Shown: positions 1 through 62,851 of the stretch, piece by piece
Layout: every line of letters starts with the position of its first letter
How positions within the stretch are numbered: position 1 is the first letter of the stretch
Virus record (IMG/VR): IMGVR_UViG_3300009152_000050
Coordinates: 1-62,942 of that record
Length of the DNA stretch: 62,942 nt
Reading direction: 5' to 3' (one strand)
From: a virus
Notes under the pieces: generated by a model
The model's database searches: none
Told to the model about the DNA's origin: nothing
What the model saw: the letters and a program-made list of their open reading frames with translations, nothing else
Position numbers and translations under genes: made by a program

Positions 1-123
1 GTAATTGGCCGTTAATTGGCCTCCACTCATCCTTATTAGTTACCACTCATCAATCTCTTTACACTTAAATATGGTTATTTAATAAAATAAATTTGGATAA
101 TTAAATAGGGTGTTGTATCTTTG
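1..123. repeat. Left inverted terminal repeat (123 bp)
   Basis: Bases 1-123 are a perfect reverse complement of 62820-62942. Identity stops exactly at base 123: the next base differs (c here, g in the reverse complement of the other end). Inside are short direct repeats: TAATTGGCC at 2-10 and 13-21, and CCACTCATC at 23-31 and 43-51. The inner end of the repeat coincides with the last base of a promoter -7 box. Joining the two ends would give a 246-bp perfect palindrome centred on TTACGTAA. It could be a true genome end or an assembly break at an inverted repeat. Confidence 0.97.
92..123 (+). promoter_or_regulatory. Inward promoter in left terminal repeat
   Basis: TTTG at 92-95, 20 bp, then TATCTTTG at 116-123. 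This is a full match to the Bacteroidota housekeeping promoter (TTTG, 19-21 bp, TAnnTTTG). It reads into the early genes that start at 156. The same promoter is present in the right repeat, pointing the other way. Confidence 0.85.
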
Positions 124-155: not shown

Positions 156-302
156 ATGAAATTCTTATTTGCACTAATAGAAAAAACCGAAGTAAATAAT
201 TTTAATAGCTGCTATGAAACAAGGGAAATGACCCCAACAGAAGCACAGCACATTAATGAAGATATGACACGATTAGTTTGGGTAATGTATCCAGAAAATT
301 AA
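156..302 (+). CDS. Small early protein, 48 aa, unknown
   Basis: ATG at 156, stop at 300-302. The protein begins MKFLFALIEKTEV and ends VWVMYPEN; it has no signal or membrane segment. It is the first gene after the left terminal-repeat promoter, about 32 nt beyond the -7 box, so it is probably the most proximal early product. I do not recognise the family. Early phage proteins of this size often act on host machinery, but nothing in the sequence shows that here. Confidence 0.6.
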   Translation: MKFLFALIEKTEVNNFNSCYETREMTPTEAQHINEDMTRLVWVMYPEN

Positions 303-357
303 GCAAAATTAATAATATTAAATTAATCAATCTTTAATCATATTAAAAATTAAAACT

Positions 358-543
358 ATGGACAAAAATACATTGTTATCAATTCCTTTAAGACAGGAAG
401 ATATAAATTTAATAACCTTTGCACTAAGGAGGGTGAAAGGTGAAATATTAAAATATGAGGCTGATAATCTCATGGCATATATTAATTTTGTAAATCTTGA
501 TCTAATTGCAGAAATGAAAGAACAGGACAAAATTACCGTTTAA
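358..543 (+). CDS. Small early protein, 61 aa, unknown
   Basis: ATG at 358 in an A-rich context. The protein is charged and probably helical, with leucine/isoleucine spacing in its central part, and has no cysteine motif or membrane segment. It lies in the same-strand run of small early genes that starts at the left terminal-repeat promoter. An opposite-strand reading frame covers the same bases but has no supporting context. Function unknown. Confidence 0.65.
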   Translation: MDKNTLLSIPLRQEDINLITFALRRVKGEILKYEADNLMAYINFVNLDLIAEMKEQDKITV

Positions 544-629
544 ACCTCTTTTCTTACCGTTCATCACTTTAAACTATTGGCCTATTGATTAAAATTATAC
601 TTTTACTTTTTATTAAATAACCGTTTAAA

Positions 630-1103
630 ATGTCAGGCGCAGACTATAACAGGCGCACAAAAAAAATGACTACTACAATAGAAAAACTTACAAAGTTTGT
701 GAATCAACGTCCGGGTCTTGATTTTTGTAATTACGGGGATGTTTCTGCATATCGTAGAGAGAGCGCAGAAATTACAAGAGATAGGGCAGATTTTTTTGAA
801 CTACTTTCTTTTGCTTTCCGTAGGATTGAAAATTTAGAAAATGTATTAAATGACTATTTACAAAAAAATTCAGGACGCTTATCTTTAGATGATAAAGGGA
901 ATATAGATTATTGTACTGGGCAATATTTTTGCACAGAATACCGTCCGGCAGCTAACAGGGTGTTATCTAACCTTATATGGGCATCGTATAGGGATGAGAT
1001 AGAATATAATAGCCCTAATAATGTATATGCAGACGGAAACGCAATACGCAAAGCAATAAAGCGCAATGTATCACGTAGAATAGCAAAAAATTATTTTAAT
1101 TAA
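630..1103 (+). CDS. Early protein, 157 aa, unknown
   Basis: One of the larger proteins of the left early region. The ATG at 630 gives 157 aa. A second ATG at 666 (MTTTIEKL) would give 145 aa and cannot be excluded, because these genes lack Shine-Dalgarno sequences. The middle is predicted helical (FFELLSFAFRRIENLENVL) and the C-terminus is basic (KAIKRNVSRRIAKN), which would suit nucleic-acid or protein binding. I do not recognise the family. Confidence 0.7.
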   Translation: MSGADYNRRTKKMTTTIEKLTKFVNQRPGLDFCNYGDVSAYRRESAEITRDRADFFELLSFAFRRIENLENVLNDYLQKNSGRLSLDDKGNIDYCTGQYFCTEYRPAANRVLSNLIWASYRDEIEYNSPNNVYADGNAIRKAIKRNVSRRIAKNYFN

Positions 1104-1120
1104 TCTATAAATAAACGTTT

Positions 1121-1201
1121 ATGAATCAGTCCGAAAAAATAGATATTTCTATATTAGTTGTTGGCTTTTTTCTTATCATTATTTTGTTAGCAATTAATTA
1201 A
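1121..1201 (+). CDS. Membrane micropeptide, 26 aa
   Basis: ATG at 1121 and TAA at 1199-1201. The peptide has a short polar head (MNQSEKIDIS) followed by a continuous hydrophobic stretch of about 15 residues (ILVVGFFLIIILLAI), a single membrane span. It sits 17 nt after the preceding stop and in the same strand. Two other similar single-span peptides occur in the window (2829-2900 and 13406-13489). Expression is inferred only from position and composition. Confidence 0.4.
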   Translation: MNQSEKIDISILVVGFFLIIILLAIN

Positions 1202-1256
1202 TCAGCAACATACAACATATTAAATAAAACAATAATAACCATTTAAATTAAACATC

Positions 1257-1325
1257 ATGAAAAAATTATTAAATGCTTTCCGTTCATTCTTTACCTTACA
1301 GGGCTTTAATGCCTATAATTTGTAA
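1257..1325 (+). CDS. Possible 22-aa basic peptide
   Basis: ATG at 1257 in an A/T-rich context like that of neighbouring starts, TAA at 1323-1325. The peptide is MKKLLNAFRSFFTLQGFNAYNL, amphipathic with a basic N-terminus. It fills an otherwise empty 160-bp gap between two genes. It is too short for composition to prove coding, so it is listed as possible. Confidence 0.3.
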   Translation: MKKLLNAFRSFFTLQGFNAYNL

Positions 1326-1415
1326 AGGGAATTAGCTGCAAAGGTATAGCCAGACAATCGAATTGTATTGCAGCTACTAAAATTATTTATTAATCATTTA
1401 TTAAACACTTTAGCA

Positions 1416-1793
1416 ATGTTACAAATTACAAAAAACATCATTAATTATGAAGATCAAAATTATTCTCATGCAGTAAACTATTCAGGTAGTTTATATAATT
1501 ACCCTATGACTTTAAATTATGGGGATAAGCACAAGAGAACAAAATATATATTATCATCCTGCACACAAGATATTGTTGAATTATGGCAGGACGGTATTTA
1601 TATATATGTTTTAGGGCAAAATAATGGACTTTCTTATATCTCATTAATGGAGATTGATACTGAAAAAAAAGAAGTAGTTGGAGAGGTATTTTTAAATGAA
1701 CAGGACTGCACAAGTGAGGATAATTTTAGTTATGGAATATTAGAGATGATGAGCGAAGATCAAATTAAAATACTTTGCCAATATATTTATTAA
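1416..1793 (+). CDS. Early protein, 125 aa, unknown
   Basis: The frame opens at a TTG at 1368, but the ATG at 1416 is preferred. It gives MLQITKNIINYEDQNY and 125 aa, and the 16 residues before it look like a chance extension. The protein reads as alternating beta strands (IVELWQDGIYIYVLG, LSYISLMEID) and acidic turns, with no catalytic motif I recognise. It is part of the left early gene run. Confidence 0.65.
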   Translation: MLQITKNIINYEDQNYSHAVNYSGSLYNYPMTLNYGDKHKRTKYILSSCTQDIVELWQDGIYIYVLGQNNGLSYISLMEIDTEKKEVVGEVFLNEQDCTSEDNFSYGILEMMSEDQIKILCQYIY

Positions 1794-1878
1794 AAATAGC
1801 TAAAGTAAAGGGAAAGTATAGTTATATTAGTACCTTTCTTTTTTAAAATTATTAACTAACATATAAATATATATAAAA

Positions 1879-2067
1879 ATGAAATACTACTTAGTAACTT
1901 TAAAATTTGATTACGGCAAAATTAGGATATTAACAACGGCCGAAAATGAACAGGCAGCAAAGGAAAAAGTATGTGCGGCCGAAAAATGCCCTCTTACTGC
2001 TGTTATTAATATTCACCAACATTCAGGAGCAGGGTATATGATAGAAAAAATCATAAACGTTTATTAA
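1879..2067 (+). CDS. Small early protein, 62 aa, unknown
   Basis: ATG at 1879. The sequence has a beta-alpha-beta look: MKYYLVTLKFDYG, then TTAENEQAAKEKVCAAEKCP, then AVINIHQHSG. This resembles small ferredoxin-like folds that appear as uncharacterised proteins in many phages. Two cysteines nine residues apart are not a metal motif. The gene lies between two others of the early run on the same strand. Function unknown. Confidence 0.6.
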   Translation: MKYYLVTLKFDYGKIRILTTAENEQAAKEKVCAAEKCPLTAVINIHQHSGAGYMIEKIINVY

Positions 2068-2088
2068 TTACCATTAAACTATACTACA

Positions 2089-2310
2089 ATGAGATACCAA
2101 ATAAAAAGAGAATGTTGGAATGAAAAAACATACAATGGGTATGAAGATGCTCCTTATTGGAGGATTGAAATTAAAGGGTTAAGTTTTGGACTAAATGATA
2201 ATGGTAAATTATGGGCTATTGGTAACTATTATCAAATAAAAGACTATATTGAAGATGTAGAGAATATTATAAAAGAATGTAAATTACCTATAAAAATATT
2301 AACCAACTAA
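2089..2310 (+). CDS. Small early protein, 73 aa, unknown
   Basis: ATG at 2089, 22 nt after the preceding stop. The leader AAACTATACTACAATG is nearly repeated before the next gene (AAACTATACTATAATG at 2323), so these two starts may share a translation context. The protein is rich in tyrosine and tryptophan (NEKTYNGYEDAPYWRIEIKGL) and predicted alpha/beta. Function unknown. Confidence 0.6.
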   Translation: MRYQIKRECWNEKTYNGYEDAPYWRIEIKGLSFGLNDNGKLWAIGNYYQIKDYIEDVENIIKECKLPIKILTN

Positions 2311-2322
2311 AACTATACTATA

Positions 2323-2622
2323 ATGACAAAGAAACAATTTACAGCCTATGAAATAAGTAAGGCAAAGGATAATAAAATGAAAATGTTGATTAAAGAAGCA
2401 TTAAACAGATATGATGCAGACGAATTATTGGGATTTTTGACAGAAATTACTACCGGCAATAGTGAAGAATATTTAAAGGATAAAATGGTAAGTGAATTAA
2501 CATTGGCAGGATATTGTATATTTAAGCCAGAAATGACTACACAAGCTGATAAGCTAAAGGAATATGCAGAAACATATATCTTTCCTTATTATAATGAACA
2601 ACAATCAGCAATTCTATTTTAA
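2323..2622 (+). CDS. Early protein, 99 aa, unknown
   Basis: ATG at 2323, 13 nt after the preceding stop, with the same leader sequence as that gene. The protein is mainly helical and charged, with no signal peptide, membrane segment or zinc motif. The hydrophobic pattern ALNRYDADELLGFLTEI suggests an alpha-helical bundle. Function unknown; probably co-transcribed with the surrounding small early genes. Confidence 0.6.
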   Translation: MTKKQFTAYEISKAKDNKMKMLIKEALNRYDADELLGFLTEITTGNSEEYLKDKMVSELTLAGYCIFKPEMTTQADKLKEYAETYIFPYYNEQQSAILF

Positions 2623-2644
2623 TAACATATTAAATATTAAAGCC

Positions 2645-2800
2645 ATGAGTACACTAACTCAAATTAAGGCATTACAGGCGAAATTAGACAGTCTACCAAA
2701 AAAGCAGTACTATACCTGCAAAGCTAAAATAAATGCCCTAATAAGGCAGGAACAACGCAAAGCGAAGCAGTATAGCTACTATGAATGGCTGGGAAGGTAA
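2645..2800 (+). CDS. Small basic helical protein, 51 aa
   Basis: The frame is open from 2564, but the ATG at 2645 (MSTLTQIKALQ) is a better start: the upstream part overlaps the preceding gene and is of low quality. From 2645 the protein is almost entirely helical with many lysines and arginines (LIRQEQRKAKQYSYYEWLGR), which would suit nucleic-acid binding. Family unknown. Confidence 0.55.
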   Translation: MSTLTQIKALQAKLDSLPKKQYYTCKAKINALIRQEQRKAKQYSYYEWLGR

Positions 2801-2828
2801 ACATATTAGATAATTAAATAATAAACCA

Positions 2829-2900
2829 ATGGAAAAGAAAAAAGAAAACCTATTCATAATACTACTTATCATTGTATGTGTAGTGTTAATGATGATCTAA
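2829..2900 (+). CDS. Membrane micropeptide, 23 aa
   Basis: ATG at 2829, TAA at 2898-2900. The peptide has a basic head (MEKKKEN) and a hydrophobic tail of 15 residues (LFIILLIIVCVVLMM): a classic single-span membrane peptide with a cytoplasmic positive N-terminus. It lies between two early genes on the same strand. Existence is inferred from composition and position. Confidence 0.45.
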   Translation: MEKKKENLFIILLIIVCVVLMMI

Positions 2901-2927
2901 ATTAATTAATCTTAAAAACTAAATAAC

Positions 2928-3116
2928 ATGAAAAAAGAATTAAAACAAGCAATCGTTAATTGCATATTTGAAAATGAAAAACAATTTCAACTTATTAACT
3001 ATGTAAAGACCCCCTTTCGGGGATACATATATACCAGTCAAGGTAATTACCTTATTGGGGGTGAGGAAGTAGGAGAATTTATTGATAATGCGATAAAACT
3101 ATTAATTAACCGATAA
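2928..3116 (+). CDS. Small early protein, 62 aa, unknown
   Basis: ATG at 2928 after an AAACTAAATAAC leader. An N-terminal helix (KKELKQAIVNCIFENEKQF) is followed by beta-strand-like segments (FRGYIYTSQGNYLIGGEEV). It contains one cysteine and no recognisable motif. It is followed after 11 nt by the next early gene, probably in one transcript. Function unknown. Confidence 0.6.
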   Translation: MKKELKQAIVNCIFENEKQFQLINYVKTPFRGYIYTSQGNYLIGGEEVGEFIDNAIKLLINR

Positions 3117-3127
3117 AACTAAACAAA

Positions 3128-3457
3128 ATGACAAAGTACATATTACAAGACACAGAAGCAGGTAACGTTATCAATGAATTTATTTATTTAACCGATGCAG
3201 AAAATTCATTAAAGGAATTTGAAGAAACGGATAAATTAAATGGTGAATATACTCCTGATTTTTACGAAATAAAGGAAGTAAGAGAACCGGCCACATTGTT
3301 AACTGAAAACCAAAAAATATCATTGCAGCAATTTATATTCGCTAACCTTCTTATGGCTGATGAGATAGGACTGGGAGAAGTAAATGAATGTAGAGATACA
3401 GCACAATTCATAGTTGAAGAATGGGCAAATGATAATAACATCACATTTATTGATTAA
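3128..3457 (+). CDS. Early protein, 109 aa, unknown
   Basis: ATG at 3128. The first half resembles small phage proteins with a beta-hairpin and helix (MTKYILQDTEAGNVINEF, then a charged helix). The second half contains a helical segment (LQQFIFANLLMADEIGLGEVNECR). Net charge is strongly negative, which is sometimes seen in phage DNA-mimic or inhibitor proteins, but I see no firm sign of that function here. Confidence 0.6.
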   Translation: MTKYILQDTEAGNVINEFIYLTDAENSLKEFEETDKLNGEYTPDFYEIKEVREPATLLTENQKISLQQFIFANLLMADEIGLGEVNECRDTAQFIVEEWANDNNITFID

Positions 3458-3476
3458 CATTTTAAAAATTAAAAAA

Positions 3477-3704
3477 ATGAAAGAGCAATTTGAAATACTA
3501 AAAGGTTGGGAAAATTACATTGATGACTTTTTTGCTATTACAGTCTATGATTCCTATTTGACAATGCTTGGGAATTATTCAACCGAAAAATATCATAAAT
3601 ATTTGTCATTAGGGTTCGTATTTAAAGCAGAGATTAATGAGCCGTATGTTATGCTTAATGCGACAAAAGATTCTATAAGAATAACTCTTAAAATAGATTT
3701 ATAA
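3477..3704 (+). CDS. Small early protein, 75 aa, unknown
   Basis: The frame is open from 3414, but that start lies inside the preceding gene. The ATG at 3477 (MKEQFEILKGWENYI), 20 nt after the preceding stop, is the likely start. The protein is alpha/beta with several aromatic residues and ends in a beta strand (DSIRITLKIDL). Function unknown. Confidence 0.55.
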   Translation: MKEQFEILKGWENYIDDFFAITVYDSYLTMLGNYSTEKYHKYLSLGFVFKAEINEPYVMLNATKDSIRITLKIDL

Positions 3705-3723
3705 TCACTAAAAATCTAATCTC

Positions 3724-3834
3724 ATGCTAACAATAATAATCTTATTCAATGGTACAGGGAAGTATAAAGATATGGTAAAGATGCTATGTATAGCTTTACT
3801 TTTTGATTTATGCTATATTTTACCTCTGCTTTAA
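3724..3834 (+). CDS. Small hydrophobic protein, 36 aa
   Basis: ATG at 3724, TAA at 3832-3834. The peptide has two hydrophobic segments (MLTIIILF and MLCIALLFDLCYILPLL) separated by a short basic loop, which would fit a tiny membrane protein. It follows the preceding gene by 19 nt. No family recognised; expression not certain. Confidence 0.4.
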   Translation: MLTIIILFNGTGKYKDMVKMLCIALLFDLCYILPLL

Positions 3835-3866
3835 GCGATTAATAACATATTAAATAATTAAATAAC

Positions 3867-4055
3867 ATGAAAGAAACGAATTATATTATCTCCCCTATCA
3901 GCACTTATGATGATGATTTAGAGATGTTTTCAACTAAGATAGGACAGAAGGGGAAAGATATGCCACTACTGTATAGTACATGGGGGAAAACAGAACAGGA
4001 AAGCAGGATAAGGGCTGAATTACTAATTGATAACCTTTTAAATTTTAAACTATGA
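3867..4055 (+). CDS. Small early protein, 62 aa, unknown
   Basis: ATG at 3867. The protein begins MKETNYIISPISTYD and has a helical C-terminus with several arginines and glutamates. Its stop overlaps the start of the next gene by 4 bases (ATGA type), so the two are probably translationally coupled. Function unknown. Confidence 0.6.
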   Translation: MKETNYIISPISTYDDDLEMFSTKIGQKGKDMPLLYSTWGKTEQESRIRAELLIDNLLNFKL

Positions 4056-4249
4056 TTTGCAAAGAATATGATGAATTAACGCCAATAGAAAAAACTATCT
4101 TCATAGGTGAATTAGTCCATGCAGCTATGAATGATAGCGACCTATTTAGAATTTGCCAAAAGGTAGTAGATACTGCCATTGTAAAGGGGTTGTTTAATGG
4201 AGTGCAAATGATTCCTGACCCTATTGATAACCAAATAATACCAGAATAA
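4052..4249 (+). CDS. Small early protein, 65 aa, unknown
   Basis: ATG at 4052 overlaps the previous stop by 4 bases; its own stop overlaps the next ATG by one base (TAATG). This is the tightest operon-like packing in the left region. The protein is acidic and largely helical (TPIEKTIFIGELVHAAMND). Function unknown. Confidence 0.6.
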   Translation: MICKEYDELTPIEKTIFIGELVHAAMNDSDLFRICQKVVDTAIVKGLFNGVQMIPDPIDNQIIPE

Positions 4250-4539
4250 TGAAAAACTCAACGTTTGGTTTGCTGTTAATATTATTTTTCCTTATCTTGT
4301 ATCAAAATTACAACATGATATTACTTTCAATATTAGGCAGCCTAATTGGTATAGCCTCTATATATGCTCTTATTTCAGTTCTTAATATTAAGCGAAGTGA
4401 TGCAAAAAAGAAAAAGCAATTAGCAGAACAGAACCGGCTATTCTTTCAAAGACTAAGGGATAACGAAAGGTACAATGAGTTGTCCGATCTAAAAGATTGG
4501 GATTTAAACCAATATGATGATACATTTTCAAGTAATTAA
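4249..4539 (+). CDS. Two-span membrane protein, 96 aa
   Basis: ATG at 4249 immediately at the preceding stop. Residues about 7-48 are hydrophobic with one break (LLLILFFLILYQNYNMILLSILGSLIGIASIYALISVL), predicting one or two membrane spans. The second half is a charged, probably coiled-coil cytoplasmic tail (KRSDAKKKKQLAEQNRLFFQRLRDNERYN is highly helical). It is likely an inner-membrane protein of the early region, perhaps for superinfection immunity or host takeover. That role is a guess. Confidence 0.6.
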   Translation: MKNSTFGLLLILFFLILYQNYNMILLSILGSLIGIASIYALISVLNIKRSDAKKKKQLAEQNRLFFQRLRDNERYNELSDLKDWDLNQYDDTFSSN

Positions 4540-4556
4540 CCATTAAAAAATAAAAC

Positions 4557-4832
4557 ATGACAGACATTTTAGAAACACTTGCAAAAACGTTTGAGCCATT
4601 ACCTACAATGGAGTTAGCTGCTATATGGTTAGAAAAGCCAGTAGTAACTAATGAAGGTAAGACAGTAAGACTTACAAAAGGCCATCAAGTATTAGTAGTA
4701 GATAATGAATTAACTGATATGATAGATGACCCTTCCCATCAAGTACTAAAAGTATTCGGTAAAAGTAATAGCGATTTCAGTATTTTGTTAGTGGATTTGA
4801 TTACATTTGATTTATTAACCATAAACCTTTAA
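4557..4832 (+). CDS. Early protein, 91 aa, unknown
   Basis: ATG at 4557, 17 nt after the preceding stop. The protein is acidic and predicted alpha/beta (TVRLTKGHQVLVVDNELTDMID, FSILLVDLITFDLL), with no signal peptide or metal motif. It is followed after 3 nt by the next gene, so the two are probably co-translated. Function unknown. Confidence 0.6.
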   Translation: MTDILETLAKTFEPLPTMELAAIWLEKPVVTNEGKTVRLTKGHQVLVVDNELTDMIDDPSHQVLKVFGKSNSDFSILLVDLITFDLLTINL

Positions 4833-4835
4833 AAA

Positions 4836-5096
4836 ATGGAGATTACACACACAAACGTAGGAAGTCCTAAATTAGCAGTAGGATATAAAGCAAATGTAAG
4901 AAGCAATACTGCACCAGAAATTGCGGAAACATTCACAGATGATAATGGAGAAGTACAGTACATACTATGTAATGGTAATACACAACCTAAAATAGTATAT
5001 GATGCTCTATGGAATCCAATAAAAGGTAAAGTAAACCTAAACAAACTATATAAAGGAGAAAACCCTGATAGAACTAAGCTATGGTATAAGGGATAA
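4836..5096 (+). CDS. Early protein at left edge of cassette array, 86 aa
   Basis: ATG at 4836. The protein is small, beta-rich and basic at its end (NPDRTKLWYKG). Its stop codon TAA (5094-5096) lies inside the sequence GGATAACG, which begins the first, degenerate attC-like site. The last phage-type early gene therefore abuts the cassette array exactly. The same arrangement is seen at the left edge of the second array (54734-54736). Function unknown. Confidence 0.6.
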   Translation: MEITHTNVGSPKLAVGYKANVRSNTAPEIAETFTDDNGEVQYILCNGNTQPKIVYDALWNPIKGKVNLNKLYKGENPDRTKLWYKG

Positions 5097-5134
5097 CGTT
5101 TTGCGTATATACGAGGTACGCCTTAACGAAATTA
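5094..5134 (+). repeat. Degenerate attC-like site, left edge of cassette array I
   Basis: ATAACG at 5093-5098 resembles the first core of the other sites. A short inverted repeat GCGTA/TACGC (5103-5107 and 5117-5121) and TTAACG at 5123-5128 follow. The second core is not a clean GTTRRRY, and its sequence does not pair with the far end of the first cassette (GCTTATAAC at 5352-5360). It could be a decayed attC or the original insertion point in the phage. Confidence 0.45.
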
Positions 5135-5148
5135 TAAATTATAAACAA

Positions 5149-5349
5149 ATGGGAGATTACAGTTTCGATTTAAGACCACTAATTTGGTTAGGTGCATTTA
5201 TCATCCTTGCAATTTGGGGATGTTGGGAGTTGATTGATTGGTTATGGATAGACGATGCCATTCGTAGCACCAAACCAATTATACCCGAAATAGAATTGAT
5301 TATAAAAAATAATGTTGTAGATACTGTCTATGTGTATCGTCAGCCTTAA
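5149..5349 (+). CDS. Cassette-borne small membrane protein, 66 aa
   Basis: The frame opens at a TTG at 5101 inside the attC-like site, but the ATG at 5149 (MGDYSFDLRPLIW) is the likelier start. One strong hydrophobic segment rich in tryptophan (LIWLGAFIILAIWGCWELIDWLWI, about residues 11-34) predicts a membrane span, followed by a periplasmic or cytoplasmic tail ending VDTVYVYRQP. The gene is alone between two attC-like sites, which fits one gene per cassette. Family unknown; a toxin- or immunity-like role is possible but not shown. Confidence 0.55.
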   Translation: MGDYSFDLRPLIWLGAFIILAIWGCWELIDWLWIDDAIRSTKPIIPEIELIIKNNVVDTVYVYRQP

Positions 5350-5351
5350 TT

Positions 5352-5440
5352 GCTTATAACGTTTTCGGGCTTAGCGAAGTGGCTTTTGTGCGTTGGCTTG
5401 TGTGTCGGAAAGCCATTTTGCCAAACCCGTGTTATATGAA
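5352..5440 (+). repeat. attC-like recombination site B
   Basis: The outer cores are TTATAAC (5354-5360) and GTTATA(T) (5431-5437). Inside, CGGGCTTAGCGAAGTGGCTTT (from 5366) pairs almost throughout with the segment ending in CCAAACCCG (to 5429), with G-T wobbles at the mismatches, leaving a variable loop. This layout of imperfect stem, outer cores ending in AAC and GTT, and variable terminal loop is that of integron attC sites. The downstream core GTTATATGAA is perfectly complementary to the far end of the next cassette (TTCATATAAC, 6859-6868). Confidence 0.75.
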
Positions 5441-5505
5441 GTGCCGACTTATTTACGATAAAGCTCAATTGGAATACTAAACAGAAAAACAAAAAGAAAA
5501 AAAAC

Positions 5506-5688
5506 GTGGGAAATTTAAAAGTAAAAATAATTGATACCAATGGATTAAGTGAAGAAACTATATCCAAGATTGAAGATACTATGATTTATTTAGGTATGGA
5601 GCAAGTAGATGAATGTATGTTCTGCAAAATAAAGAATAGTAAAAACGAAGTATTAATGATATTCCCAGAAAGAATAATAAAACTATAA
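5506..5688 (+). CDS. Cassette-borne protein, 60 aa, unknown
   Basis: The likely start is GTG at 5506 (protein MGNLKVKIIDTNG), after an A-rich leader. The protein is alpha/beta with a helix (SEETISKIEDTMIYLG) and a CxxC-like pair (ECMFCKIK). It is the first of three genes in the largest cassette (5431-6868), two nucleotides before the next start. I do not recognise the family. Because cassette-borne genes often travel together only by chance, its link to the glycosyltransferase downstream is uncertain. Confidence 0.55.
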   Translation: MGNLKVKIIDTNGLSEETISKIEDTMIYLGMEQVDECMFCKIKNSKNEVLMIFPERIIKL

Positions 5689-5690
5689 AT

Positions 5691-5954
5691 ATGGAAAACA
5701 CATTAAGTTTATTTGATGATTTAGAAAACGAATGGCAAAAAGAATGGAAGGATATGCCAGAGTTTATAACAAATAACAAAAAACCTTATCAGCAAATTAT
5801 TGTGTCATTTAAAAATTTTGATGATGTAAAAGAATTTGCAAAGAGATTAGGTTTAAATGTTACACCTAAAACAGATGCTTTATGGTTTCCAATGAAGGAT
5901 AAAGAAAGTGGATTACATTATGTAAATGATAATTGGAGTAAAGATGAAAAATAA
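5691..5954 (+). CDS. Small phage-type protein with conserved WFP ending, 87 aa
   Basis: ATG at 5691. The N-terminal part is acidic and tryptophan-rich (EWQKEWKDMPEF). The second half reads IIVSFKNFDDVKEFAKRLG then LNVTPKTDALWFP. From memory this pattern is common to a small family found next to ParB-like, methyltransferase or glycosyltransferase genes in phages; I cannot verify that here. The gene overlaps the start of the downstream glycosyltransferase by 11 bases, so the two are coupled. Molecular role unknown. Confidence 0.6.
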   Translation: MENTLSLFDDLENEWQKEWKDMPEFITNNKKPYQQIIVSFKNFDDVKEFAKRLGLNVTPKTDALWFPMKDKESGLHYVNDNWSKDEK

Positions 5955-6789
5955 ATACCCAATATTTATACCGACAAAAGGAAGGTTTAAAACACCACAG
6001 ACTATCAATATGTTTAAATCACATAATGTTGATTTTAGAATTGTTATAGAAAAACAAGAGTATGAGCAGTATTCTAAAATTATAGACAAATCAAAAATAA
6101 TAGTTGTTCCTCACCAAAACGAAGGATTGACTGTTACAAGGAATTGGATATGGGATTTTGCAGAAAATGAAGGACACGAAAAATTCTGGACATTTGACGA
6201 TAATATTGGTAGGGTTTACAGATGGAACAATAACACAAGATACCAATGTAAGGATGGAACATATTTAAAAGTAATTGAAGATTTTGCAGATAGATATAAT
6301 AACCTACACATAATTGGTATGAACTATATGTGTTTTTGTAAAAGTGGTGATAACATACCTCCATACTACCCTAATACAAGGATTTATAGTAATATGCTTT
6401 TACCGACAAATGTAAAACTATCTAATGGTGAAAAACTAAGAAACAAGTTGTTTTATAACGATGATACAGACCTTTGTTTAAGAGTTTTAAAGGATGGACT
6501 ACCTACTATACAAATCAATGCTTTTTTAATAGACAAGAGCCAAACAATGACAGTAAAAGGAGGGATGACAGATTACTATTTAAGTGATGAATGTAAAGGC
6601 AGATTAACATTTGCTGAAGAATTACAAAAGGCACATCCAGACGTAACGACTATAACTCAAAAGTTTGGGAGGTGGCATCACCACGTTAATTATAAACCTT
6701 TTAGAAAAAATAAGTTAATCCCAAAAGAAGGACTTATAATAAAAAAACAAGTCAATGAATATGGAATGGAACTTAAAAAAACTATTTAA
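5944..6789 (+). CDS. TAGT/GREB1-type glycosyltransferase
   Basis: The ATG at 5944 is preferred over 5926: it gives MKNKYPIFIPTKGR and is preceded by GGAGTAAAG, a rare Shine-Dalgarno-like sequence here. The protein is 281 aa. The opening beta strand IFIPTKGR, then T-P-Q-T, VIEKQEYEQY, TVTRNWIW (R66, N67) and FWTFDDNI (D85, D86) follow the glycosyltransferase pattern of TET-associated/GREB1-like enzymes. In phages, members of that family add sugars to modified bases. The DDN is the expected nucleotide-sugar and metal-binding motif. Its neighbours in the array are a DNA methyltransferase and a HAD protein. I see no TET/JBP dioxygenase or hydroxymethylase in the window, so the base substrate, if any, is unknown. 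It could instead glycosylate a protein. Confidence 0.6.
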   Translation: MKNKYPIFIPTKGRFKTPQTINMFKSHNVDFRIVIEKQEYEQYSKIIDKSKIIVVPHQNEGLTVTRNWIWDFAENEGHEKFWTFDDNIGRVYRWNNNTRYQCKDGTYLKVIEDFADRYNNLHIIGMNYMCFCKSGDNIPPYYPNTRIYSNMLLPTNVKLSNGEKLRNKLFYNDDTDLCLRVLKDGLPTIQINAFLIDKSQTMTVKGGMTDYYLSDECKGRLTFAEELQKAHPDVTTITQKFGRWHHHVNYKPFRKNKLIPKEGLIIKKQVNEYGMELKKTI

Positions 6790-6858
6790 AAGTGCGTTGG
6801 CTTTTTTCTTTTTGTTTTTCCTTCACGGATTTTCAATTGGAAACGGTCAGCAAGGCAT

Positions 6859-6995
6859 TTCATATAACGTTTTCGGGCTTGGCGAAGGCGGGGAGTTTAA
6901 CCACAAAAGTTTAATAGAATGACAGAAGATAATATAACCACAAATGTTCAATTGGAAAACGGAAGCCCCGCTTTTGCCAAACCCGTGTTATGTGC
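6859..6995 (+). repeat. attC-like recombination site C
   Basis: The outer cores are CATATAAC (6861-6868) and GTTATGTG (6987-6994). The stem CGGGCTTGGCGAAGGCGGGG (from 6874) pairs with GCCCCGCTTTTGCCAAACCCG (to 6985) with few mismatches, around a loop of about 70 nt. The upstream end TTCATATAAC complements the start of the preceding cassette. The downstream GTTATGTGC complements the end of the next one (GCACATAAC, 7635-7643). The ATG of the methyltransferase frame (6919) lies in the loop. Confidence 0.78.
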
Positions 6996-7629
6996 TGGTG
7001 CGGTTTCAAAAGACGGAATTTCGTTAATAAACGGAGATTGTTTGCAAGCCTTACGAGGCTATGGCGATAATCATTTTAAGATAGCAATAGTTGACCCACC
7101 TTATGGAATTAATGCAGGTAAAATGACAATGGGAAGCGGTAAGCACAAATTTAGCAAAGACAAAGATTGGGATAGTGCAATACCAAGCGAAGAGTATTTT
7201 ACCGAATTATTTAGGGTGTCTGAAAATCAAATTGTGTGGGGTGGCAATTACTTTACTGAATTTTTACCGCCTACACCACATTGGCTTTTATGGGATAAGA
7301 AAAACCCAAATTTGAGCTTTGCTGAAGGTGAGTTGGCTTGGGTGCGAAAAGGTAAAAACCTGCGGATATTTCAACACTATTCAGCACAAGTTGAAGAAGG
7401 CGGCAAAATACACCCGACACAAAAGCCTGTAAAATTATACAGGTGGATATTAAACAACTACACAAGCGAAGGGGATTTGATTTTAGACACCCATTTGGGA
7501 AGCGGGTCAATCGCCATAGCCTGCCATCAAATGAAACGAAATTTAATAGCCTATGAGATTGATGAAGAATACTACCGAAAGGCTTGCAAACGATTTGAAG
7601 AACAAACTCGTCAAACTGCACTATGGTAG
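6919..7629 (+). CDS. Cassette-borne DNA methyltransferase (DPPY, beta class)
   Basis: The enzyme transfers a methyl group from S-adenosylmethionine to N6-adenine or N4-cytosine. Motif IV DPPY is at residues 59-62; the SAM-binding motif DTHLGSGS (190-196 region) lies C-terminal, giving the beta-class order. HPTQKP at 165-170 is typical just before motif I. The ATG at 6919 is inside attC site C, so residues 1 to about 30 are encoded by the recombination site (SPAFAKPVLCAGAV). Conserved sequence begins near GISLINGDCLQAL. The true start may be a non-ATG codon such as the GTG at 6985, or the enzyme really carries an attC-encoded leader. No partner nuclease is present, so it probably protects phage DNA from host restriction. 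Confidence 0.85.
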   Translation: MTEDNITTNVQLENGSPAFAKPVLCAGAVSKDGISLINGDCLQALRGYGDNHFKIAIVDPPYGINAGKMTMGSGKHKFSKDKDWDSAIPSEEYFTELFRVSENQIVWGGNYFTEFLPPTPHWLLWDKKNPNLSFAEGELAWVRKGKNLRIFQHYSAQVEEGGKIHPTQKPVKLYRWILNNYTSEGDLILDTHLGSGSIAIACHQMKRNLIAYEIDEEYYRKACKRFEEQTRQTALW

Positions 7630-7634
7630 CACTT

Positions 7635-7692
7635 GCACATAACGGTTTGCGTATAAAAAATCGTTTTAATGTTTTTTATACGCTGTTAGGTG
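7635..7692 (+). repeat. attC-like recombination site D (short)
   Basis: The outer cores are GCACATAAC (7635-7643) and GTTAGGTG (7685-7692); GTTAGGT is a perfect GTTRRRY. The stem TTGCGTATAAAAAA (from 7647) pairs with TTTTTTATACGC (to 7683) around a loop of about 13 nt. The first core complements the start of the upstream cassette (GTTATGTGC at 6987). The second complements the end of the downstream cassette (CACCTAAC at 8227-8234). Confidence 0.8.
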
Positions 7693-7717
7693 TCTGGTTT
7701 TATTTAAAATTTGAGCG

Positions 7718-8233
7718 ATGGAAAAAATTATATTCTTAGATATTGACGGCGTTTTAGCAACTCCAAAATATTTGAAAGATGGACAATGGGCTTTAAACCC
7801 AGAAAAACAAAAACTGTTAGGTGAAATACTTACCCAAACAGATGCTAAAATTGTTTTATCTTCTTCATGGAGGTATGCGACTTTAGAAAAAACAAAAGAA
7901 CACATGGAAGCGGAAGGATTTTTGTTTAACGATAAATTGATTGGTGTTACAATTAGAGCATACCAATGGCTTGAACGTGGAACAGGGATACACTTATCAA
8001 TTCCAAGAGGTGTAGAGATAAAACAATGGGTTGATACTCATATTCATTCTGATAATGGTAAAAATTGGGAACGAAAGAAATTAGGCAAGGATTTTACCTA
8101 TGTGATATTAGATGATGAAAGTGATATGCTTTTGGAACACAGAAATAATTTTGTGCATACTAAAAGTGAAATAGGATTGACAGATGATGATGTTAGGAGT
8201 GCGGTGGCAATTTTAAATAAAACTTGCACCTAA
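7718..8233 (+). CDS. Cassette-borne HAD-superfamily phosphatase
   Basis: A HAD hydrolase of 171 aa. Motif I is FLDIDGVL with the nucleophile D8 and acid/base D10; SSSWR at 48-52 supplies motif II; a lysine-rich segment (ERKKLGKDF) and ILDDESD near 125-132 supply motifs III and IV. The SSSWR plus short-cap layout resembles the HAD group often linked to RNA or nucleotide repair. The stop codon (TAA, 8231-8233) lies inside the terminal core CACCTAAC. It is the only gene of its cassette (7685-8234). The substrate is unknown; a polynucleotide 3'- or 5'-phosphate is a reasonable guess. Confidence 0.75.
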   Translation: MEKIIFLDIDGVLATPKYLKDGQWALNPEKQKLLGEILTQTDAKIVLSSSWRYATLEKTKEHMEAEGFLFNDKLIGVTIRAYQWLERGTGIHLSIPRGVEIKQWVDTHIHSDNGKNWERKKLGKDFTYVILDDESDMLLEHRNNFVHTKSEIGLTDDDVRSAVAILNKTCT

Positions 8234-8246
8234 CGGGTATATGTAA
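8227..8246 (+). repeat. Terminal half-site of cassette array I
   Basis: CACCTAAC (8227-8234; ACCTAAC is a perfect RYYYAAC) pairs with the cassette start GTTAGGTG at 7685-7692. It is followed by GGGTATATGTAAAC, with no long stem and no GTTRRRY. The right edge of array II has the same look (GTATAAC then ATAAAATATGTACG at 55763-55783), with ATATGTA shared. It is probably where cassette DNA meets phage DNA. Confidence 0.55.
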
Positions 8247-8285
8247 ACATTCTTTATAACTAAATGATAATTAAATAATTATGTT

Positions 8286-9119
8286 ATGAATATCGGAAAG
8301 TATATACAGTTGTATTCCGAAGATTTACGATTGAAAAATTATGCTGAATCTTCTATTTCCAATTATGTATCACAGGTTAAATGTTTTTTAGAGCATTTTT
8401 CTGATGTAGCTACAAAGCCTTCTGAAATAAACGAAAGGCAAATAAAACAATGGCTACTTTCCGCTAATTCTATTAATGGAAGAAGGCATAGATTATCAGC
8501 ATTAAAGCTATTCTATTCGCTTACAGGTAAACAGCCGTTAAAATTTAAGCACATAGAATATCCTCGGTCAGAAAAAAAATTACCAATCGTTCTGTCTGTG
8601 GAAGAAGTACAGAAAATGTTTTCAGCGTGTTCTAATACAAAACACAAGTTAATATTGGCTATTTTGTACTCTTGCGGATTACGGGTTAGTGAATTGATAA
8701 GCCTTAAATGGAATAACATTGACAGGAGCAGGATGGTAATAAATATTATTGGAGCAAAAGGGAATAAAGACCGTCAAGTACCGTTACCTGAAATACTTAT
8801 TCCTTTATTAGAAAAATACTGGTATAAATACAAAACTAAAACATACATTTTAGAGGGGCAATTTAAAGATGTATATAGCAGCAGAAGTGTACTTGAAGTA
8901 GTTAAACAATTAGCAGAAAAAGCAGGGTTAAGGAAAGATGTTTGGACGCACTTAATTCGTCATTGCTATGGAACGCATCAGGTGGAAAGTGGAGTTGACA
9001 TAAATCTCATACAGAAAATACTTGGGCATAGCAATGTTAAGACAACTAATATCTATTTACATACCTCACATAACTTAATATCTCGTATTCAATCACCTTT
9101 AAATAGTATTAATTTATGA
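8286..9119 (+). CDS. Tyrosine recombinase next to cassette array
   Basis: The protein is 277 aa, with an N-terminal SAM-like core-binding domain (about 1-85) and a C-terminal catalytic domain. The complete catalytic set is visible: R133 (GLRVSEL), K158 (GAKGNKDR), H222 and R225 (HLIRH), H248 (LGHSN) and the nucleophile Y257 (NIYLHT). It joins DNA by breaking one strand at a time through a 3'-phosphotyrosine. It lacks the extra roughly 16-residue patch of classical IntI, being closer to XerC/XerD or short phage integrases. It starts 52 nt after the terminal half-site of array I and overlaps the next gene by 4 bases (ATGA). It could serve phage integration, cassette movement, or both. Confidence 0.88.
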   Translation: MNIGKYIQLYSEDLRLKNYAESSISNYVSQVKCFLEHFSDVATKPSEINERQIKQWLLSANSINGRRHRLSALKLFYSLTGKQPLKFKHIEYPRSEKKLPIVLSVEEVQKMFSACSNTKHKLILAILYSCGLRVSELISLKWNNIDRSRMVINIIGAKGNKDRQVPLPEILIPLLEKYWYKYKTKTYILEGQFKDVYSSRSVLEVVKQLAEKAGLRKDVWTHLIRHCYGTHQVESGVDINLIQKILGHSNVKTTNIYLHTSHNLISRIQSPLNSINL

Positions 9120-9565
9120 AGCGACTACTAATTTTATTGTTATTAACATCTAAGTTATCTTATAGTCAAAAGTGGTGGAATATAACTAAGAATGATTTAC
9201 TGATAGTGGGAGTAGGTTTTGTAGGAGGTGGTGCAGATGCTTATAATCAACGTATCTTACATCATAAGTACGGAGCAGGAAAGCCATTTTGGGATTACTC
9301 TACATCGTATAAAAGGAAATATAAAGATTTTGAGAATGGAGATTTAAGAGCAGCATATCCCGGCAGTAAGACATGGTTAGTAATGACTACTGATGGCTAC
9401 CACCTTACAAGAGCAGTAGATAGGTTTCATTCATTATTTACGATTGGTATAACTGCGTATGAATGGAATGAATATAAAGGATGGGATAGGGTACTATTTA
9501 TTAGTAAGAAAGTACTACTGTCTGGCGTTAGTAATAGAATTGCATTTAATTTAATCTACAAATAA
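9116..9565 (+). CDS. Exported protein, 149 aa, unknown
   Basis: ATG at 9116 overlaps the recombinase stop. A clear signal peptide opens the protein (MKRLLILLLLTSKLSYSQKW; likely cut after SYS). The mature part has a glycine-rich hydrophobic segment (LLIVGVGFVGGGADAYN), then a YxxKxxxKYxxF-like and WDxxTS region. It is probably periplasmic or outer-membrane. It is translationally coupled to the recombinase and followed by a second exported protein, an arrangement expected of surface-altering prophage genes. Function unknown. Confidence 0.6.
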   Translation: MKRLLILLLLTSKLSYSQKWWNITKNDLLIVGVGFVGGGADAYNQRILHHKYGAGKPFWDYSTSYKRKYKDFENGDLRAAYPGSKTWLVMTTDGYHLTRAVDRFHSLFTIGITAYEWNEYKGWDRVLFISKKVLLSGVSNRIAFNLIYK

Positions 9566-9577
9566 ACCCACCTAATT

Positions 9578-10039
9578 ATGAAAGTTTTAATCACCCTCAA
9601 CCTAATTTTAATTTTATCAATCCCTTCATTTACCCAACCTTATTTTGGGATAGGATTGCAGAACAAAGGCTTTAATATGAGTTTAGGAATAGTCGCAGAT
9701 AATATTGATGCACAAATCAACTTTAAAACCCCATTAACATCGGCAGAAGAATCAAAGGTACTATCTCTTACTATTGGTAGAATGATTAATATAACCAATA
9801 ATGATGAAGATAACTACTCCATTACCCCCTTATTAGGAATAGGATGGAGTAAGTATCAAGATTTTAGCCAGTACGATTTAGATGATAAAGCAGCCATTAT
9901 AGACGTTAATAAGTTTAGTGGGGTATATGGCTTAGAAATCGGAAAAGATGCCCACGTTGGTCGCATATCGCTTATGGGAAGGTATTGTGATAGTAAGATG
10001 TACTATGGTGTAACAATGAGAGTATTTTTTAGCAGATAG
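9578..10039 (+). CDS. Outer-membrane beta-barrel-like protein, 153 aa
   Basis: A signal peptide (MKVLITLNLILILSIPSFTQ) is followed by alternating hydrophobic/polar strands with turns (YFGIGLQNKGFNMSLGIV, KVLSLTIGRMINI, ITPLLGIGWSKYQ). It ends with a phenylalanine-rich strand (YGVTMRVFFSR), as in small outer-membrane barrels. It is the last gene before a strong bidirectional terminator. With its exported neighbour it may alter the host surface, for example to block superinfection; that is inference. Confidence 0.6.
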   Translation: MKVLITLNLILILSIPSFTQPYFGIGLQNKGFNMSLGIVADNIDAQINFKTPLTSAEESKVLSLTIGRMINITNNDEDNYSITPLLGIGWSKYQDFSQYDLDDKAAIIDVNKFSGVYGLEIGKDAHVGRISLMGRYCDSKMYYGVTMRVFFSR

Positions 10040-40781: not shown

Positions 40782-43211
40782 TTACATTACTTGTTGTTGT
40801 CCTTGCATTTGCTCTTGTTCCATTCCTTCTTGTGGTTGTTGCTCTTGCATTTGTTCTTGTCCTTCTTGTTGCCCCTGTTGTTGTTCTTGCTGCATTTGTT
40901 GTTGTTGCATTTGCTCTAATACTTGCTGTTGTATTTGTTCGTTTTGTATAGATGCTGGCAATGCTACATTCTGAATAACCGCTTGTGCTAATGCTTGTAA
41001 TTCTACCGGCATTGGTAGTCCTTGCTCATATATCTTCATTATAGAAGCTAAAACTGTATTTTTATTTTGGTACTCTCCGGTTGTTTTTGTTTTCTGTAAT
41101 TCAATATCCCCTTTTACTGATTCAGTTTCTTGCTTTGATTTTTCTGCTGCTTGTGCCGATGCTATTTGTCCTTCTATTGTAGCTTTTTGATTTTGCGCTG
41201 CTGTTTCTTGTTGGCTTTTTAGCATTTTTCTTTGCCCTTGCCTATACAATGTTTCAGCTAATTTCACATCCTCCTTTGCTACTCTTATTAATTGGAATGG
41301 GTCAATAAATAAAACAAGTTCAGGTGTTGATACCATTGCTTGATTAAGTAATGCCTCAAATTTCATTATCTCTTGGCCATCAGGTAAAAATCTAACATTG
41401 GTGTTAAATATTCTACTTGCTACTTCCTCTTGATTTATTAATCTTCTATAAACATCTGCGCCATGAGTTACACTATCCTTTAGTAAACAAGATATTTTCC
41501 TTGCAGTATCTTTCATACATTCAGCATAAGCTAAATACATATAATCGGTTGCATTTGCAGCTACGTCTTGTGATGTGGCTACGTTACCTTGTGTTACTCT
41601 TGGTTGTAATGCACTTGCCGCTAAATTCGGGTCTTCACCTAATTCATCCCTTAGCACTTGATAATGGAATCTATACAACTCCATTAAGGCTTGCATCTGT
41701 GGTAAAAACCCTGCATTTGCAAGTTCTGTAATTGGTACAGGTACAGGATTTCCTTCTGCATCTGTTCCGTTATAATACAAATCACCTACTTGTTCGTATA
41801 GTTGTTTGTAGTCTATTGTTTTATTCTTATCTCCTAATCCGTAATCTATATTTTGTAATGCAGTTACATTTATTGCAGCACCTACTGGTTTCATCTTAGC
41901 TACAAGTTGCTGTATCTTTAACCTTGCTAAAATCATTTGATCGGCAGGTTCTTCTATCTTTTCAGGCACAGCTATATTTCTCATTTCATAGCTTTGGTAC
42001 ATATAGAATGAATAAGAAAACTCTGCGTTACCTACTTCTTTAGGGTCTTGTGGTCTAATCATGTTTTGCTTCAATCCCCACTCTAACATATAGTCAGTAT
42101 CTTTCACATACACACCACGATAGATATTCCACATTCTATCTTCTTCCGCTTTTTCATTATCACCCCTTTTTTCTGAAACTCCTTTTTTTACAATAGTGCT
42201 TTTATTCTTTTTTGTTGTTACTACTGTATATGGCTCGCTATCTACTGTTTTAATTTCAAACTCATAAATATCAACATTCCATTCATCATAAGGTCTTGTA
42301 TAAATAGCTGCCCATTGGTCAAGCCATGTAATCTTATCGCCTAATTGATATTCTTTTGCAGTTGCAGCTATTCTAAATAAATCTTCTTCTGTTAGTTTAC
42401 CACCAAATTGCTTACCATACTTTTTACGTAGTTCGCTTATCTTCATTGCCCTAACTCTACCTCTAAATGTGGTATCTCTAAAATCAGGAAACTCACTATA
42501 TGAATAAAAAGCATTTTCAGGTTTAACCCATTCAACATGAATAACTCCATACTCATCCATCCACGTATAAGTACCTACAAATCCTACTTCCGCACTATCA
42601 TGTAGCATTTTTTCTTTCATAACAGTAAACCAACTGCATGAATCTAATACTTCATTAGTACCCATTTCATACTTAATTTCTTCTGGTAGTCTTTGGAATT
42701 GAGTAACCCATAAATTAAGTTCTTCTTTATCGGCAGGAATTGAAGTGTTTTGTGGAATCATTTGCACCCCTGATTCAGCCTGTAATTGTTCTAACATGGC
42801 TCTATTATCCATGATAAACTCTATGTTCTCGTATTCGTCTTGCTTTTGTTTTACTGAAAGTGAATCGGTAGCATTTACTACTATCTTTTCATTTCGGTTC
42901 ATCCATCGGCCTACTAATCCTGATACAATCCTGTTTACTATTCTAATGCTTTGCCAGTTAATATTTGCATAGTTAGTCTTTCCGTTAAATTCCATTAAGT
43001 CCTGAAATTTCTTCATATTAATTTTGCCATTGGCAGAATTTCTATTTTGCTTAAACCTACTGTTTCTTGCAAAATAATACCCTCCAATGCCTCCATTAAC
43101 TGTACTAACGATGTACTTAGCCAAATCTAAGCCCGTATTATCTTCGGATTTCTTAGCAATGCTATTATTTGATAACTGAAATTCTTTTAGTATTTGTTGG
43201 TTTTGCTCCAA
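40782..43211 (-). CDS. Portal protein, 809 aa
   Basis: Large portal of the P22/crAss type. Helical N-terminus, then a wing/clip region with KMKPVGAAINVTALQN and LRDELGEDPNLAASALQ segments. TYTWMDEYGVIHVEWVKPENAFYSYSEFPDFRD is a strand/turn typical of these portals. The C-terminal 120 residues are glutamine-rich and coiled (MEQEQMQGQQQ-like repeats), suggesting a barrel or internal extension. It would form the dodecameric ring through which DNA is packaged and ejected. Its place between terminase and scaffold is the usual one. Confidence 0.75.
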   Translation of the reverse strand: MEQNQQILKEFQLSNNSIAKKSEDNTGLDLAKYIVSTVNGGIGGYYFARNSRFKQNRNSANGKINMKKFQDLMEFNGKTNYANINWQSIRIVNRIVSGLVGRWMNRNEKIVVNATDSLSVKQKQDEYENIEFIMDNRAMLEQLQAESGVQMIPQNTSIPADKEELNLWVTQFQRLPEEIKYEMGTNEVLDSCSWFTVMKEKMLHDSAEVGFVGTYTWMDEYGVIHVEWVKPENAFYSYSEFPDFRDTTFRGRVRAMKISELRKKYGKQFGGKLTEEDLFRIAATAKEYQLGDKITWLDQWAAIYTRPYDEWNVDIYEFEIKTVDSEPYTVVTTKKNKSTIVKKGVSEKRGDNEKAEEDRMWNIYRGVYVKDTDYMLEWGLKQNMIRPQDPKEVGNAEFSYSFYMYQSYEMRNIAVPEKIEEPADQMILARLKIQQLVAKMKPVGAAINVTALQNIDYGLGDKNKTIDYKQLYEQVGDLYYNGTDAEGNPVPVPITELANAGFLPQMQALMELYRFHYQVLRDELGEDPNLAASALQPRVTQGNVATSQDVAANATDYMYLAYAECMKDTARKISCLLKDSVTHGADVYRRLINQEEVASRIFNTNVRFLPDGQEIMKFEALLNQAMVSTPELVLFIDPFQLIRVAKEDVKLAETLYRQGQRKMLKSQQETAAQNQKATIEGQIASAQAAEKSKQETESVKGDIELQKTKTTGEYQNKNTVLASIMKIYEQGLPMPVELQALAQAVIQNVALPASIQNEQIQQQVLEQMQQQQMQQEQQQGQQEGQEQMQEQQPQEGMEQEQMQGQQQVM

Positions 43212-43311: not shown

Positions 43312-43479
43312 ATGGCAATAATGCAAATAAAAAGGATGCCCGATGATATATCCCTATATCTCAAACAAATTCAGAAAGAAATAAAAGAAAAAAAAGGGAT
43401 AAAACAATTCTCCTTAGAATTAACCGCAATAAGTATAATCAGAGAACACAAAGATGATAAAGAAAAAAAGCAACCTTAA
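43312..43479 (+). CDS. Ribbon-helix-helix-like protein, 55 aa, antisense to late operon
   Basis: ATG at 43312, TAA at 43477-43479. MAIMQIKRMPDDISLYLKQI gives a short beta strand and a first helix, and KQFSLELTAISIIREH a second helix: the size and order of a ribbon-helix-helix DNA-binding protein. It overlaps the 3' end of the terminase gene by 4 bases on the other strand. It has its own promoter and shares a bidirectional terminator with the terminase, so it is a self-contained unit. It might repress late or early genes, or be an autoregulated accessory gene. Confidence 0.6.
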   Translation: MAIMQIKRMPDDISLYLKQIQKEIKEKKGIKQFSLELTAISIIREHKDDKEKKQP

Positions 43480-43490
43480 TAGTTGCTTTG
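43461..43490. terminator. Bidirectional terminator between terminase and antisense gene
   Basis: AAAGCAAC at 43467-43474 pairs with GTTGCTTT at 43482-43489. On the reverse strand the stem is followed by TTTTTTTC, a strong terminator for the terminase transcript. On the forward strand it ends the antisense gene. Confidence 0.75.
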
Positions 43491-60922: not shown

Positions 60923-61123
60923 TTAATTACACTTAGGTTTACAAATTTCTACAAGTTGATTCATTATTTCACTACTTCTACCTCCCCAATACATTTCACA
61001 TTTATTATCTGCATAAGGAGGCTTAATAAACCACGATTGACGTTCTGATACTGGTGCAGTAAATCTATAACAAGTTTCTTTTAATGGGCAATCAATACCC
61101 TTGCATTTACTTATATCTGCCAT
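60923..61123 (-). CDS. Small cysteine-rich protein, 66 aa
   Basis: Seven cysteines (KCKGIDCPLKETCYRFTAPVSERQ, KCEMYWGG, CKPKC) suggest one or two metal sites. No recognised fold. It is the last gene of the right early group, 3 nt after the 126-aa gene. Function unknown. Confidence 0.6.
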   Translation of the reverse strand: MADISKCKGIDCPLKETCYRFTAPVSERQSWFIKPPYADNKCEMYWGGRSSEIMNQLVEICKPKCN

Positions 61124-61126
61124 TGT

Positions 61127-61507
61127 TTAAAGTTTAATTTCTAATTCAGTTCCTGTTAATGCGAATATTAAATTTTGAAGTTGGTGGAGATATTTAACTG
61201 TTGTATAAAAGCACGAATTGTACCATTCATTATCATTTATGCGTATGCGACCAACTTTATACAATGGCGATAAATACCCGCCAAAATTATCGTTTGCTTT
61301 CTCAAAACCACACTTTTCTAACAGTTCTGCCGTAAGAGGCATGGTTCTATAATACTTATCGAAATGCTCTTTATTATTCAAGCAGCACTCAATATCTTGC
61401 AAGTCTATTTTATTCTTCACCCAAAAGCCGGGGTCAGATTTTTTCATATTATCTTCAATATAATATTCACAGTAGTTTCCTAATCTTAGTTCATTTGCTG
61501 CTATCAT
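61127..61507 (-). CDS. Phage early protein, 126 aa
   Basis: The beginning MIAANELRLGNYCEYYI resembles a protein that I recall as common in phages and prophages of Bacteroidota, with TAELLEKCGFEKANDNFGGYLSP in the middle and YLHQLQNLIFALTGTELEIKL at the end. Function unknown. Confidence 0.65.
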   Translation of the reverse strand: MIAANELRLGNYCEYYIEDNMKKSDPGFWVKNKIDLQDIECCLNNKEHFDKYYRTMPLTAELLEKCGFEKANDNFGGYLSPLYKVGRIRINDNEWYNSCFYTTVKYLHQLQNLIFALTGTELEIKL

Positions 61508-61509
61508 TG

Positions 61510-61734
61510 TTATTTCTTTTTAAATTGTTCAATCAATTCATTAAAATTATCTTCTCCTGTTAATTGAAAGTTTCTACCTGTTTCAAAAGATAACTTCATA
61601 TCTTCCTCACTATACATTCTACTATTTTGTTCATGTTCACATTCATTCCATACTTTTATTAATGCTTGACAAACGCTTACACTATTTGGAAAGGCTGTTG
61701 TTTCTTGTATTTCTTTAATTCTGTCTGCTGTCAT
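61510..61734 (-). CDS. Small early protein, 74 aa
   Basis: Helical and charged (RIKEIQETTAFPNSVSVCQALIKVWNECEHEQ), with no metal or membrane motif. Two nt before the 126-aa gene in the same transcript. Function unknown. Confidence 0.55.
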   Translation of the reverse strand: MTADRIKEIQETTAFPNSVSVCQALIKVWNECEHEQNSRMYSEEDMKLSFETGRNFQLTGEDNFNELIEQFKKK

Positions 61735-61807
61735 GTTTTTTGTTTTTAAATGTTAATAATTCCAACCCATACCTGTTAACCCTGTTATAGGGCAGCAGTA
61801 CTTTTTA

Positions 61808-61860
61808 AATGTTGCTTATTACCCACAAAAAGGGGTTATATGTTGAATTTAAGCAACATT
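61808..61860. repeat. Inverted repeat AATGTTGCTT / AAGCAACATT
   Basis: A perfect 10-bp inverted repeat (61808-61817 and 61851-61860) with a smaller ACCC/GGGT hairpin inside (61830-61836 region). The right arm overlaps the stop of the 158-aa gene. No T-tract follows on the reverse strand, so it is not a simple terminator; an mRNA processing or operator site is possible. Confidence 0.5.
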
Positions 61861-62325: not shown

Positions 62326-62343
62326 TGTAACAGTTTTGAAACA

Positions 62344-62374
62344 CAAATGTAACAAATAAAATCATAAATACAAA
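62344..62374 (-). promoter_or_regulatory. Promoter of zinc-finger gene
   Basis: On the reverse strand TTTG (62371-62374), 19 bp, TACATTTG (62344-62351). Perfect consensus. Leader of about 13 nt to the start at 62325. Confidence 0.8.
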
Positions 62375-62519
62375 AATATTTTCGTGTTTTTTTTTAAAAA
62401 AATAAAAAATAAAATAACCAAAAAATCATTTGGCGCATTTTAAAGCCTATTTAAGCCAAAAAATATAAAAGTAAGGTAATCTATCCAAAAAGATATTTGA
62501 AAGCAATTTTGATATGTTT

Positions 62520-62732: not shown

Positions 62733-62786
62733 CTTTTAAGTTTTAGTTGGTTAAATATTTAATAGATAGTAAAAGTATAATGTATA

Positions 62787-62816: not shown

Positions 62817-62819
62817 GAC

Positions 62820-62851
62820 CAAAGATACAACACCCTATTTAATTATCCAAA
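62820..62851 (-). promoter_or_regulatory. Inward promoter in right terminal repeat
   Basis: On the reverse strand TTTG (62848-62851), 20 bp, TATCTTTG (62820-62827). Identical to the left-end promoter and pointing into the 62732 gene. Confidence 0.85.

Follow-up and report, generated by a model that had tools for sequence, protein, structure and literature searches.

A viral contig with perfect 123-bp inverted ends: probable assembly break at a real inverted repeat

The window, by which we mean the whole stretch of DNA analysed here (62,942 bases, a single IMG/VR virus record), begins and ends with the same sequence in opposite orientations. We consider it highly probable (roughly 90%) that the assembly broke at these ends, within a real inverted repeat measuring 123 bp or more that flanks a missing module of a larger genome. 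It is almost certain that the matching ends, which form an inverted terminal repeat (ITR) in the contig, are not the tips of a chromosome, and a natural linear genome is unlikely for this window. The original prediction had listed three options and leaned toward unusual natural termini. The assembly break at a repeat is the option that stood, whereas hairpin telomeres and natural termini did not: relatives read through the break, a module is missing there, and the window has neither a family-B polymerase nor a protelomerase.

The terminal repeat and its length

Direct comparison and a repeat search agree with the earlier description of perfect 123-bp inverted ends. Positions 1-123 and 62820-62942 are exact reverse complements, with the first mismatch at base 124, and the search returned this pair at 100% over 123 nt, the runner-up inverted pair in the window being 36 nt at 78%. 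The repeat is real within the contig and cannot be a product of chance. The copies and the gene blocks next to them are as follows:

1..123, + strand: left repeat copy, matching 62820-62942 perfectly in reverse complement and probably cut at 123 bases by the assembly; it reads inward into small early-type genes
156..10039, + strand: rightward block in which most genes are small, lying downstream of the left copy (ORF list)
60923..62732, - strand: leftward small-gene block downstream of the right copy (ORF list), with two genes conserved in the relative L004; its ORFs are 60923-61123, 61127-61507, 61510-61734, 61849-62316 and 62520-62732
62820..62942, - strand: right repeat copy, whose homologue in L004 is internal, with the genome going on past it

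The palindrome centre proposed earlier, TTACGTAA, is correct for ends joined head to tail, and it is the centre because of where the contig was cut.

The terminal identity is exactly as long as the highest k in a JGI MEGAHIT setting from the literature (k-list 23, 43, 63, 83, 103, 123; PMC6646334), which may not be the setting of the window's own assembler. In a viral-assembly benchmark, contigs fragmented at repeats carried ends of exactly maxK with both MEGAHIT and metaSPAdes (PMC10914622). When we simulated a circular genome with an inverted repeat, the ITR of the large unitig was equal to k whenever the repeat was k or longer, and the graph simulation gave the same result with or without a segment between the arms (X = 0 rows included). 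The length of 123 suggests a cut at k. An exact match to k tells us no more than that the repeat was cut at this point and is 123 bp or longer in reality. On length alone, a circle cannot be told from a naturally linear genome whose ITR exceeds 123 bp, since both would yield this contig.

The X = 0 rows also mean that a circle with one perfect palindrome of at least 246 bp, and no segment between the arms, yields the same contig. However, relatives carry about 2.5 kb or more past the arm, with genes that the window lacks, and a palindrome of this kind would be expected to be unstable, as long perfect palindromes usually are in bacteria. We regard such a circle as very improbable.

Elsewhere in the data, the starts of L045 and L056, the one such pair among 111 fetched loci, share exactly 127 bases. 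Their sample numbers are neighbouring and 127 is the top k of the JGI SPAdes setting (PMC6646334); as a k-mer signature, this is suggestive only.

Relatives across the break point

Relatives were found using the window's prim-pol/helicase as the query. L004 (IMGVR_UViG_3300037042_004811), with 86% DNA identity to the window over the prim-pol region, aligns at 7126-7276 to the right end of the window (62785-62931) and then runs 2.8 kb further. Beyond the right-end homologue it has an A/C-rich spacer, a promoter-like site and, among its genes, a RecE-like exonuclease (phrog_5715) and a RusA-like resolvase; a single arm only is present in the L004 stretch examined. G003, which is 99.75% identical to L004 up to the break region, also enters the L004-type spacer and is without the small gene and arm present in L004. 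In a side-by-side view of L004 6915-7265 and L013 from 10005, again 99.75% identical genomes, the small gene, arm and promoter are present in the former and absent from the latter. The site is thus variable among strains, even near-identical ones.

G006 (65,788 bases), whose prim-pol is 68% identical to that of the window, shows the order prim-pol, NinG, arm, position of an annealing-like protein, exonuclease and RusA. This internal arm lies at the place that matches the window's right end, and it recurs, inverted and perfect over 103 bp, as the opposite end of the G006 contig. The terminal copy leads inward into a small-gene block comparable to 156..10039; 103 is also a member of the published k-list (PMC6646334). 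G010 (62,651 bases) ends within about 40 bases of the matching point, and all three module-bearing contigs end inside RusA or at most 160 bp past it. Continuation past the window's break is seen in L004, G003 and G006, and no exonuclease or RusA of the relatives' kind was detected in the window. The original prediction had named repeats flanking a missing internal segment as an outcome that would speak against natural termini; the module present in L004 and G006 and absent from the window supports such an arrangement.

We propose that the real genome would contain two opposite-orientation copies of a promoter region, each 123 bp or longer, with a module of about 2.5-3 kb between them; a RecE-like exonuclease and a RusA-like resolvase would be among the proteins that this module encodes. 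A short-read assembler would be unable to pass the repeat, and the contig would end at the same k-mer on both sides, giving a perfect terminal inverted repeat of exactly k = 123 bases. Here we infer that MEGAHIT with k = 123 was used on this sample, that the stretch missing in this phage is the exonuclease/RusA module and that the genome is circular-mapping. Judging from G006 and L004, the genome is probably missing about 2.5-3 kb.

Among the relatives, no single unbroken contig joined both arms to one module, and the viral contigs searched yielded none that carries the segment missing from this phage. The outer 21-mer of the repeat had no match in other viral contigs; a 26-mer common to the window and L004 matched only L004 there, and a 32-mer from the L004 spacer matched only L004 and G003. 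A search with the left-end protein of 157 aa found no relatives.

The arms could also be recombination sites that keep the copies identical, with the exonuclease/RusA module flipping between them to give two isomers. This is compatible with the assembly-break explanation and would add a function to it: the isomers would redirect early transcription or replication. Within the window, and likewise within G006, the two arms match perfectly, but the arms of one genome do not align with those of the other, which is expected if the copies are kept alike in each genome, and the module encodes recombination-type enzymes. Against it, no recombinase is common to the window and G006, recent duplication would explain the arm identity equally well, and the cultivated phages phi38:1 and elemoE, unlike the window, have no long inverted repeats. 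An inversion-prone circle found no positive evidence, and we consider flipping of the module unlikely.

Two further observations came from the same comparisons. A 28,685-base contig, L003 (IMGVR_UViG_3300027974_000128), is identical to window positions 32011-60695, so the same phage is present in a second IMG/VR record. In L117/G011, the prim-pol segment (about 16416-19357) lies at the same location as in G006, G012 and G013 but in the opposite orientation, with no strong inverted repeat flanking it; this inversion could be real or a misassembly.

Gene content and natural ends

Three genes of the window bear on replication and packaging:

57246..59312, + strand: prim-pol/helicase (phrog_19930, E 8e-78; PF09250)
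43476..45539, - strand: terminase large subunit (phrog_6681, E 2e-62)
40782..43211, - strand: portal protein (phrog_6547, E 9e-39)

The prim-pol/helicase had been predicted before, and the gene is there. The window also encodes NinG and a sigma factor, and one of its proteins is matched by the Crassvirus muzzle domain. Searching bacterial genomes with the prim-pol returned no prophage.

A genuine linear genome with ITRs, replicated from its ends by a protein or another primer, would agree with the perfection of the repeat and with a window size near that of other members (62.7 and 65.8 kb). However, the relatives do not terminate at the matching place, a conserved module is missing exactly at the window's break, and the large terminase and portal are of the usual tailed-phage kind. 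The PF03175 search found no family-B DNA polymerase in the window, in line with what had been claimed, while the same search finds that of phi29 (positive control, 371 bits). We give a protein-primed or otherwise end-replicated genome very little credence.

Hairpin telomeres made by a protelomerase, as in phage N15, are the least credible of the explanations considered. The ends are indeed inverted copies of one sequence, and a tyrosine recombinase is encoded at 8286-9119. However, this recombinase is of the XerA/XerD/integron-integrase type (its best NCBIfam matches are XerA/integron-integrase models, all below cut-off) and was not detected in G006 or G010. The window has no match to the ResT/TelK-type protelomerase domain (PF16684), for which the control was positive in Synechococcus. 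The arm shows no unusual folding of a telomere-like kind (z -1.0), and L004 reads through the right-end homologue. Two lines of evidence led us to reject both hairpin and protein-primed ends: gene searches backed by positive controls, and the relatives' read-through. The recombinase was rejected as an agent of the repeat on its lack of detection in G006 and G010.

The neighbourhood of this recombinase has features of its own. Imperfect attC-like palindromes at 5356-5437, 6862-6887 and 7640-7690 adjoin a glycosyltransferase (5926-6789) and a DNA methyltransferase (6919-7629), followed by the tyrosine recombinase. Those of the window fold no better than shuffled sequences; a similar palindrome at L031 170-285 has a z of -2.7. 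Integrons in phages have already been reported (PMC9892861).

Promoter-like arms and known systems

Both arms contain a promoter-like site that points inward:

92..123, + strand: TTTG-N20-TATCTTTG, Bacteroidota -33/-7 type, inside the left copy (from sequence)
62820..62851, - strand: TTTG-N20-TATCTTTG, reading leftwards, in the right copy; conserved in L004 (7160-7191) and G006 (62947-62978)

In flavobacteria, TAnnTTTG is the sigma-A -7 element (PMC9723704). Across the window, the promoter motif shows no enrichment (9 found vs 4.7 expected, with a random-sequence maximum of 10), and the promoter reading is supported by position and from conservation in L004 and G006, not from motif count. Each arm is probably an early promoter for its own flanking gene block, the two being divergent.

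Databases class contigs of this kind as ITR genomes that are putatively complete (PMC12807716), and pipelines place the window in this class because its identical inverted ends sit on one contig. According to CheckV, more than 90% completeness is reached by 33.2% of the IMG/VR ITR contigs with an estimate vs 90.0% of the DTR contigs (PMC8116208). An ITR length equal to the assembler's k should flag a contig as a likely break; the window combines a repeat length identical to a published k with the absence of a module conserved in relatives.

Inverted terminal repeats are what the window shares with Bacillus phage phi29. However, phi29 is a poor model for a 123-bp repeat, its annotated inverted repeat being only 6 bp, and it has a family-B polymerase and a terminal protein, whereas the window has no such polymerase. 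In phage N15 the likeness would be ends that are inverted copies of one half-site; N15 has a protelomerase, whereas no such domain was found in the window. The window resembles the breaks on which COBRA is based, i.e., k-length end overlaps in de Bruijn assemblies (PMC10914622), both in its terminal identity at the published maximum k and in the conserved neighbouring module missing at its break. Unlike the usual k-length overlaps, its two identical ends sit on one contig and are inverted.

As for affiliation, the nearest cultivated relatives are Cellulophaga phages phi38:1 and Calle (Callevirus, Pervagoviridae) and the Flavobacterium elemo phages. The prim-pol is 32% identical to those of phi38:1 and Calle, TerL is 27% identical to those of the elemo phages and the portal is 24% identical to that of phi38:1; at 24-32% protein identity, the window does not belong to the same genus. 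The record of phi38:1, distant from the window, is circular and has a PolA gene. TerL, the portal and the gene order (TerL, portal, structural genes) are shared with these Callevirus/elemo-type Bacteroidota podoviruses, and the best reading of the window is a near-complete, probably circular-mapping genome of a crAss/Callevirus-related Bacteroidota podovirus.
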